From Candidatus Firestoneibacteriota bacterium (GTDB lineage Bacteria; Oederibacteriota; D2-FULL-39-29; CAIOVX01): a stretch of DNA of 61,975 nt. The notes under the pieces were generated by a model. That model did no database searches. It saw nothing but the letters and a program-made list of their open reading frames with translations, and was not told the origin of the DNA. The stretch covers positions 1-61,975 of the forward strand of contig CAIOVX010000074.1 of NCBI GenBank assembly GCA_903861835.1, given 5' to 3'. Both the position numbers and the translations under genes were made by a program. Shown here one piece after another: positions 189 to 60,716 of the stretch; the first letter of the stretch is position 1, and every line of letters starts with the position of its first letter.

Positions 189-198
189 CTTAACATAT

Positions 199-290
199 CC
201 GTAAGGGCTAACCCGGAGCAATCCGGGCTCGCAAAGCTATGGGTCTATAAAGTCGCCTGGTTTCCGGGCGTTCAGGTATCTTACTGACTG
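199..290 (+). promoter_or_regulatory. Candidate cyclic-di-GMP-I (GEMM) riboswitch
   Basis: A three-way junction can be drawn. GTAAG (201-205) pairs with CTTAC (279-283). A second stem CCCGGA/TCCGGG is capped by the GNRA tetraloop GCAA. A third stem CGCCTGG (254-260)/CCGGGCG (264-270) follows. Between the second and third stems is CGCAAAGC, the most conserved stretch of the GEMM class. The GNRA-capped helix and CGCAAAGC core are hallmarks of this family, which senses c-di-GMP or, in the GEMM-Ib subtype, cGAMP. Here it precedes a pilus/secretion operon, a typical target. I could not run a covariance search, and the ligand-contact base that separates the subtypes cannot be assigned by eye. Confidence 0.62.
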
Positions 291-33627: not shown

Positions 33628-33656
33628 TTGACATTATTGTCTTTATTTGTTATTAT
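33628..33656 (+). promoter_or_regulatory. Sigma70 promoter of the cold-shock gene
   Basis: A perfect TTGACA (33628-33633) and TATTAT (33651-33656) with a 17-base spacer. The leader of about 100 nt (33663-33765) contains a GC-rich part with a CCGTACGG palindrome and a nine-T run. Long structured leaders are usual for cold-shock genes. Confidence 0.8.
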
Positions 33657-33765
33657 CCATCAACGATTGGGAGTAAAGATTCGGCCGTACGGCGGGATAG
33701 ACTCTGCCTCGCGGTCTTTTTTTTTAGCACCCGGTCGAATTTTAGGCACCAAAGGAGTAAAGGAA

Positions 33766-33966
33766 ATGGCAAGAGGTAAAGTGAAATGGTTCAACGATCA
33801 GAAGGGCTACGGGTTCATCACCCCGGAGAACGGAAAGGATGTATTCGTACATTTCTCCGCAATCCAGGGCGACGGTTTCAAGTCCCTTGCTGAAGGCCAG
33901 GAAGTCGAATTCGACATCACCATGGGCCAGAAGGGTGAGCAGGCAACCAACGTCCACAAAGTCTAA
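33766..33966 (+). CDS. cspA: Cold-shock protein (CspA family)
   Basis: A 66-aa single cold-shock domain that binds single-stranded nucleic acid as an RNA chaperone. The RNP1 motif KGYGFIT and RNP2 motif DVFVHFSAI are intact. The ATG at 33766 follows AAAGGAG; the frame is open further upstream but that part is the leader and promoter. It is monocistronic, with its own promoter and terminator. Confidence 0.97.
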
Positions 33967-33997
33967 TAGACTTCAGGACTAAAATAAGCCTACAAGC

Positions 33998-34033
33998 GAG
34001 GCGGGACAGCAATGTCCCGCCTCTTTCTTTTTT
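33998..34033 (+). terminator. Rho-independent terminator of the cold-shock gene
   Basis: GAGGCGGGACA, loop GCAA, TGTCCCGCCTC, then TTTCTTTTTT. Confidence 0.95.
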
Positions 34034-60071: not shown

Positions 60072-60142
60072 AGCCGCTCGTTCGCGGAGATTTCATATCT
60101 GAATTAAATTATACAAAAAGTATCTGAAAAGCTAAAAAGTAT

Positions 60143-60171
60143 TTGACCCTTTGAAAAATATTTATTATAAT
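60143..60171 (+). promoter_or_regulatory. Sigma70 promoter of the HTH-PilZ gene
   Basis: TTGACC (60143-60148) and a perfect TATAAT (60166-60171) with a 17-base spacer, about 40 bases before the ATG. The region is very AT-rich. Confidence 0.8.
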
Positions 60172-60212
60172 TCTCATCTGTTTGAATGCAGTGTTAAAAC
60201 AGAGGAGGATTA

Positions 60213-60716
60213 ATGAAAGCCCAGCAGGTACGCATCGGCCATATAGCGAAAGAAATAAAGATGTCCTACAGTTTGGTCTGCAAGATCCTGAATAATACCC
60301 CTAATTTCAAACCATCTGAATCAACACGGCTTATGGTCCTGCGCAAGGCGCAGGAAATGGGATTTAGCTACTCCTCGCTTCGGCGCATTCACAGGCGCAA
60401 ACACACGAGAGTAAAGCATCAGTCGGGAGGAGATATAGTCATAAAAACTTTAAACGGAGAAGTTTTTGATTCCGGCACTTTTGTAACCGATGACTTAAGC
60501 AAGAACGGAACCTGCATCTGCAAGCCGGAGCTTGAGAGGGGAGTTTTTCCGGCCGAGCCTTTCTACTGCGATTTCAAGATGACAGACGGTCCCTTGAGGG
60601 GGCACACTTTTAAGGGCTTGCCGGTGCGCCTTGCTTGCGAGAAAGGCTTCGCAATGGGTTTCAAATTCACGGATATGTCTAAAGAGCAGCTGCGCCATTT
60701 ATCGTCAGTCTGCTGA
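60213..60716 (+). CDS. LacI-type HTH fused to a PilZ domain (putative c-di-GMP-responsive regulator)
   Basis: A 167-aa protein. Residues about 5-58 are a LacI-type DNA-binding headpiece (VRIGHIAKEIKMSYSLVCKI, then LNNTPNF and KAQEMGFSYSS). Residues about 60-165 are a PilZ-like domain instead of the usual sugar-binding module. The two c-di-GMP ligand motifs are present: R62xxxR66 (RKHTR) and D94xSxxG99 (DLSKNG). The C-terminal GFAMGFKFTDMSKEQLRHL matches the PilZ end. It has its own strong promoter and an AGAGGAGG ribosome site. The targets are unknown. The sequence does not show whether c-di-GMP activates or releases it. Confidence 0.8.
   Translation: MKAQQVRIGHIAKEIKMSYSLVCKILNNTPNFKPSESTRLMVLRKAQEMGFSYSSLRRIHRRKHTRVKHQSGGDIVIKTLNGEVFDSGTFVTDDLSKNGTCICKPELERGVFPAEPFYCDFKMTDGPLRGHTFKGLPVRLACEKGFAMGFKFTDMSKEQLRHLSSVC

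Follow-up and report, generated by a model that had tools for sequence, protein, structure and literature searches.

Can a LacI-type DNA-binding head be placed under the control of c-di-GMP by exchanging its ligand-binding core for a PilZ domain? This question is raised by an open reading frame at positions 60213 to 60716 of the window, by which we mean the whole 61,975-nucleotide stretch of Candidatus Firestoneibacteriota DNA analyzed here; the gene and the elements described for it and its upstream region lie on the plus strand. The original prediction was that this frame encodes a LacI-type headpiece fused to a PilZ domain, read directly by c-di-GMP. The frame, its start and its coordinates proved right, and profiles, Foldseek and homologues agree on the fusion. 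We propose that the protein acts as a minimal one-component transcription factor whose operator binding is gated by c-di-GMP at the PilZ switch loop, a reading to which we assign a probability of roughly two-thirds.

The gene has 167 codons, running from an ATG at 60213 to a stop codon that ends at 60716, and is preceded by a Shine-Dalgarno sequence, GAGGAGG (60202 to 60208). It has a promoter of its own, a sigma-70-type TTGACC-17-TATAAT (60143 to 60171) whose -10 element and 17-nt spacing recur at both orthologous loci (L007 and L008). Within the 5' leader, a dyad, TCTGTTT...AAACAGA (60177 to 60203), is clear in the window and at L007 and weak at L008. The gene upstream, across a gap of 141 bp, is IF-2B-like (PF01008) and, judged by its PNP_UDP_1 neighbor, is probably mtnA. 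Because an unrelated 546-aa ORF stands between mtnA and the fusion gene at the L008 locus, the fusion gene is no fixed member of an mtnA operon.

The N-terminal part of the protein is a LacI/GalR-type helix-turn-helix headpiece (residues 6 to 49; 60228 to 60359), which extends to residue 60 if the predicted hinge helix is included. NCBIfam models of the LacI family (EbgR, CytR and RbsR) align over head and hinge with E values of 0.009 to 0.2, and CcpA in the PDB matches residues 6 to 62, again head plus hinge, with an E value of 0.013. In Foldseek, the head superimposes on the heads of CcpA and PurR at 1.3 to 2.0 angstroms over 45 residues, with a probability of up to 0.99 for CcpA. A LacI headpiece HMM built in this analysis, partly circular in that its 21 LacI sequences were found via the window protein or its profile, gave the window protein 44.2 bits with filters off, compared with 7.8 bits for the best of 2,000 shuffles and 5.3 bits for the highest-scoring other ORF of the window. 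The CcpA alignment, the Foldseek matches and the comparison with shuffles all identify a LacI-type headpiece. The Pfam model HTH_LacI (PF00356) did not match the window protein; two residues inserted ahead of the third helix may be the reason.

The hinge helix itself (residues 53 to 60; 60369 to 60392) is predicted by AlphaFold2 (AF2) at low confidence. LacI/GalR hinges carry a leucine that intercalates into the minor groove, and both the CcpA and the HMM alignments place this site at H60, or at a tyrosine in the distant homologues described below. L56 was considered for this role and rejected, as it falls in register with V51 of CcpA. Given the replacement of the leucine by histidine or tyrosine, the hinge of this protein may not operate by the classic mechanism.

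Where a LacI regulator would continue into its periplasmic-binding-protein-like effector core, the window protein has no such core and has a PilZ domain in its stead (residues 61 to 165; 60393 to 60707), joined to the head without a linker. The replacement that had been proposed is thus borne out by both profile and fold, and we conclude that the protein uses a LacI head yet is not a LacI/GalR repressor. PF07238 aligns with residues 61 to 164 at 20.2 bits, slightly below its cut-off of 22.5, but it exceeds that cut-off in both orthologues (28.2 bits in L007 and 23.7 in L008). The profile search suggested with the prediction therefore supports the PilZ half through the orthologues, while the window protein itself stays below threshold for PilZ and unmatched by HTH_LacI.

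Structure prediction points the same way. A PilZ-only AlphaFold model, made from three sequences, reached a pLDDT of 70 and has the beta-barrel and C-terminal helix of a PilZ domain; the helix (residues 157 to 166; 60681 to 60710) is present in both AF2 models. The top Foldseek matches of this model were the PilZ domains of BcsA, MapZ, VCA0042, PA4608 and Alg44, and several of these structures contain bound c-di-GMP. These matches had probabilities of about 0.9 to 1.0, with E values of 0.003 to 0.02 for BcsA, MapZ and VCA0042, and although none reached an E value of 0.001, the matches form a consistent set. In the AF2 model that includes the hinge, the hinge and RxxxR region has a pLDDT of about 40, which counts against the proposed reading.

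Both c-di-GMP motifs are present and retained in the genus, with the numbering originally given for them. RxxxR (R62 and R66; 60396 to 60410) sits at the junction of hinge and core and is invariant in five homologues, and [D/N]xSxxG (D94-L-S96-K-N-G99; 60492 to 60509) has D or N at its first position in the orthologues and reads NxTxxG in two distant homologues, L021 and L022. The segment R57-R58-H60-R61-R62-K63, which spans the hinge and the start of RxxxR, is strongly basic.

To what extent is this architecture maintained? L007 and L008, from other Firestonebacteria species of the same genus, are 88% and 87% identical to the window protein. Substitutions among the three genes are mostly at third positions, with a dN/dS of about 0.03 to 0.06, and we therefore conclude that the fusion gene is no chance frame and is under purifying selection. 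By region, dN among the three species was 0.02 to 0.03 in the head and about 0.09 to 0.11 in the PilZ half. The gene occurs in three of the four genus members; it was not found in the fourth (G001), a genome that is only 87% complete, so that true absence there is unproven.

A profile of the three orthologues searched against 384 genomes returned two full-length homologues, L021 (E value of 8e-17) and L022 (2e-15). Both come from one family of another phylum, where both genomes searched carry the gene, and they are 28% identical to the window protein with the same domain order. Their Pfam matches are weak but correctly placed (LacI, 16.2 and 16.6 bits; PilZ in L021, 16.4 bits), and LacI is narrowly outscored by HTH_Crp_2 and HTH_3. 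A hand alignment of the window protein with the distant homologues has no gap between I11 and R62, 52 residues each; MAFFT places a gap before residue 11. R62, R66, G99 and a D or N at position 94 are common to all five homologues. L021 and L022 also keep L56, and S96 is replaced by threonine in them. When a five-sequence profile was searched against 386 genomes, a set that mostly overlaps the 384, its head half found proteins of LacI size, of which the ones inspected were typical full-length LacI repressors. Its PilZ half found PilZ proteins, including ones of the HTH_17-REC-PilZ type. The shared architecture of the distant homologues and these half-by-half matches argue that the fusion is no accident of one genome.

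The fusion is nonetheless rare among the sequences covered, being found in five genomes (996 genomes, including repeats, and a single-sequence contig pattern scan). The recognition helices differ by lineage (SYSLVCK and DRTTVNK), and the operators should therefore differ as well. With regard to the origin of the fusion, plasmid and viral sequences were searched as a source and yielded none. An origin by domain shuffling from a LacI repressor of the same genome was rejected, since the genome contains no other LacI-type protein. An inference from the context of L106 and L107 was likewise rejected, their neighbors being metabolic.

Among known systems, MrkH of Klebsiella pneumoniae is the closest characterized relative. 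This PilZ transcription factor has both motifs and binds DNA when c-di-GMP is present (PMC3161979), but its N-terminal part has another fold without an obvious HTH, whereas the N terminus of the window protein is a LacI-type HTH. The LacI/GalR family (CcpA, PurR and EbgR) shares the headpiece and the position of the hinge; the window protein differs in lacking the periplasmic-binding-protein-like core, in having H or Y for the leucine, and in carrying two additional residues ahead of the third helix. Stand-alone and YcgR-type PilZ proteins (PA4608, MapZ, VCA0042 and the PilZ domain of BcsA) share the fold and both c-di-GMP motifs but lack a DNA-binding head. Two HTH_17-REC-PilZ proteins of genome G099 (L047 and L072) show another DNA-binding head in a single chain with a related PilZ domain; this head is of the MerR/excisionase type, and a receiver domain lies in between. 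VpsT, FleQ, BldD, BrlR, Clp and LtmA also combine a DNA-binding part with a c-di-GMP response in each chain (PMC12564702), but they bind c-di-GMP without PilZ. In the open-access papers covered by our search, no LacI-PilZ or HTH-PilZ transcription factor is named. This agrees with the earlier statement that no characterized example was known, and we consider "uncharacterized" better supported than "never seen" for this pairing.

The genomic setting suggests that the ligand would be available. The genome encodes six GGDEF proteins, all with GG[DE]EF and five with an I-site-like RxxD, so the organism should make c-di-GMP. Four other PilZ proteins score above the cut-off, at 46 to 59 bits. The single c-di-GMP-I riboswitch of the genome lies in the window (196 to 268; 41.8 bits), directly 5' of an MshEN-T2SSE ATPase gene (367 to 2073; MshEN, 70.6 bits) and of a type IV pilus/type II secretion operon that extends to about 9869; riboswitch and ATPase form two layers, both of which would read c-di-GMP. 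The two c-di-GMP-linked features noted in the window are thus real matches, but some 58 kb separate the fusion gene from the beginning of the pil/gsp operon, and sharing the window is therefore weak evidence for a functional link. Shared dyads had been suggested as a possible connection, and none common to the fusion gene and the pil operon was found.

Several further architectures and elements were observed. The adjacent genes L009 and L011 (G000:C11:50140-51332) combine PilZ with a cyclic-nucleotide-binding (cNMP) domain and carry no HTH; it is unusual for these two nucleotide-sensing domains to be fused. In L010 (G000:C91:142109-142399), a PilZ domain (55.5 bits) follows a zinc finger at the N terminus that resembles a B-box (zf-B_box, 16.9 bits, short of its cut-off). 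Elsewhere in the window, a cspA thermoregulator match (33688 to 34028; 78.7 bits, cut-off 78) overlaps an ordinary cold-shock protein gene within ORF 33628 to 33966.

A candidate operator for the fusion gene is a dyad-like element, TTTCATATCTGAA (60091 to 60103), which stands 5' of the gene and is identical in three species amid diverged flanks. It is over-represented, with counts of 13, 8, 8 and 8 compared to 1, 1, 3 and 1 for the reversed control. In each of the four genomes of the genus, a similar element lies 5' of a comM-like gene of the Mg-chelatase family (L076, L081, L082 and L099), where the flanks are as conserved as the element. Many matches to TTTCATATCTGAA fall inside coding sequence, the element also occurs in G001, where the fusion gene was not found, and none of the candidate operators has the CpG that LacI operators usually carry at their center. 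We therefore dropped it from proven operator to a lead, and a lead for possible autoregulation only. No target genes could be linked to the fusion gene, which counts against its reading as a one-component regulator.

How might such a protein work? In LacI proteins, the core is coupled to the operator through the hinge, and in characterized PilZ proteins, the RxxxR switch loop moves or becomes ordered upon c-di-GMP binding. Here, PilZ would substitute for the whole sugar-binding core, and given that it begins at the junction of hinge and core, the switch loop R62xxxR66 would directly continue the hinge. We propose that two LacI-type headpieces, paired via their PilZ halves, would read a dyad operator, and that c-di-GMP held by R62, R66 and D94xSxxG99 would fix the switch loop. 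The fixed loop would either order the hinge or pull it away, so that the spacing of the two heads shifts and operator binding is switched. Direct coupling is predicted because hinge and loop are joined without a linker. With the minor-groove leucine replaced and the segment so basic (R57, R58, R61, R62 and K63), c-di-GMP and DNA might instead compete for it. DNA binding, c-di-GMP binding and regulation are all predicted from sequence together with models of low to medium confidence; on this footing we consider DNA binding by the window protein very likely and c-di-GMP binding probable, and we infer that it dimerizes.

A false domain call, with an HTH from some other family or a beta-barrel that resembles PilZ by chance, would undercut this proposal at its base. 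The lack of an HTH_LacI match in the window protein, the weak scores of other HTH families there, and the slight lead of HTH_Crp_2 and HTH_3 over LacI in L021 and L022 speak for such an error, but the sequence and fold comparisons, the reverse search and the distant homologues all converge on the two domains. We regard this explanation as very improbable and largely refuted.

The remaining rivals accept both domains and question the sensing. The PilZ half might serve only as a dimerization or partner-binding module, with the basic hinge and RxxxR contacting DNA. Such a role would suit the divergence of this domain (20 to 28 bits, compared with 46 to 59 bits for the PilZ proteins of the same genome), the threonine at position 96 in distant homologues and the strongly basic segment around the hinge. 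PilZ domains that do not bind c-di-GMP usually lack the RxxxR arginines, whereas here R62 and R66 are retained, along with G99 and a position 94 that is only ever D or N, in five of five homologues, and we find this explanation unlikely. The protein could also be nucleoid-associated, or bind DNA with low specificity, with overlapping and mutually exclusive sites for DNA and c-di-GMP in its basic hinge, as is reported for CdbA of Myxococcus (PMC10313047). The location of RxxxR inside the basic hinge and the small size of the protein, without a fused effector domain, would fit such a binder, but the fold of a LacI head recognizes specific sequences and the gene is single with its own promoter, making this improbable. 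We therefore favor the one-component transcription factor gated by c-di-GMP.

More tentatively, and with considerable doubt, the window protein might be the founding member of a class of such minimal transcription factors, present in at least two phyla, in which PilZ has taken the place of the LacI sugar-binding core at the hinge, the switch loop serves as the allosteric hinge, and the targets are of the type IV pilus or competence type. If the proposed reading is true, the protein shows how a LacI headpiece and a PilZ domain can join directly, with no linker, within 167 amino acids; hinge allostery could then be probed with a new ligand, and the protein would offer a compact, engineerable regulator that responds to c-di-GMP. 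For the organism itself, the LacI-PilZ protein points to c-di-GMP control of transcription in an uncultivated phylum.
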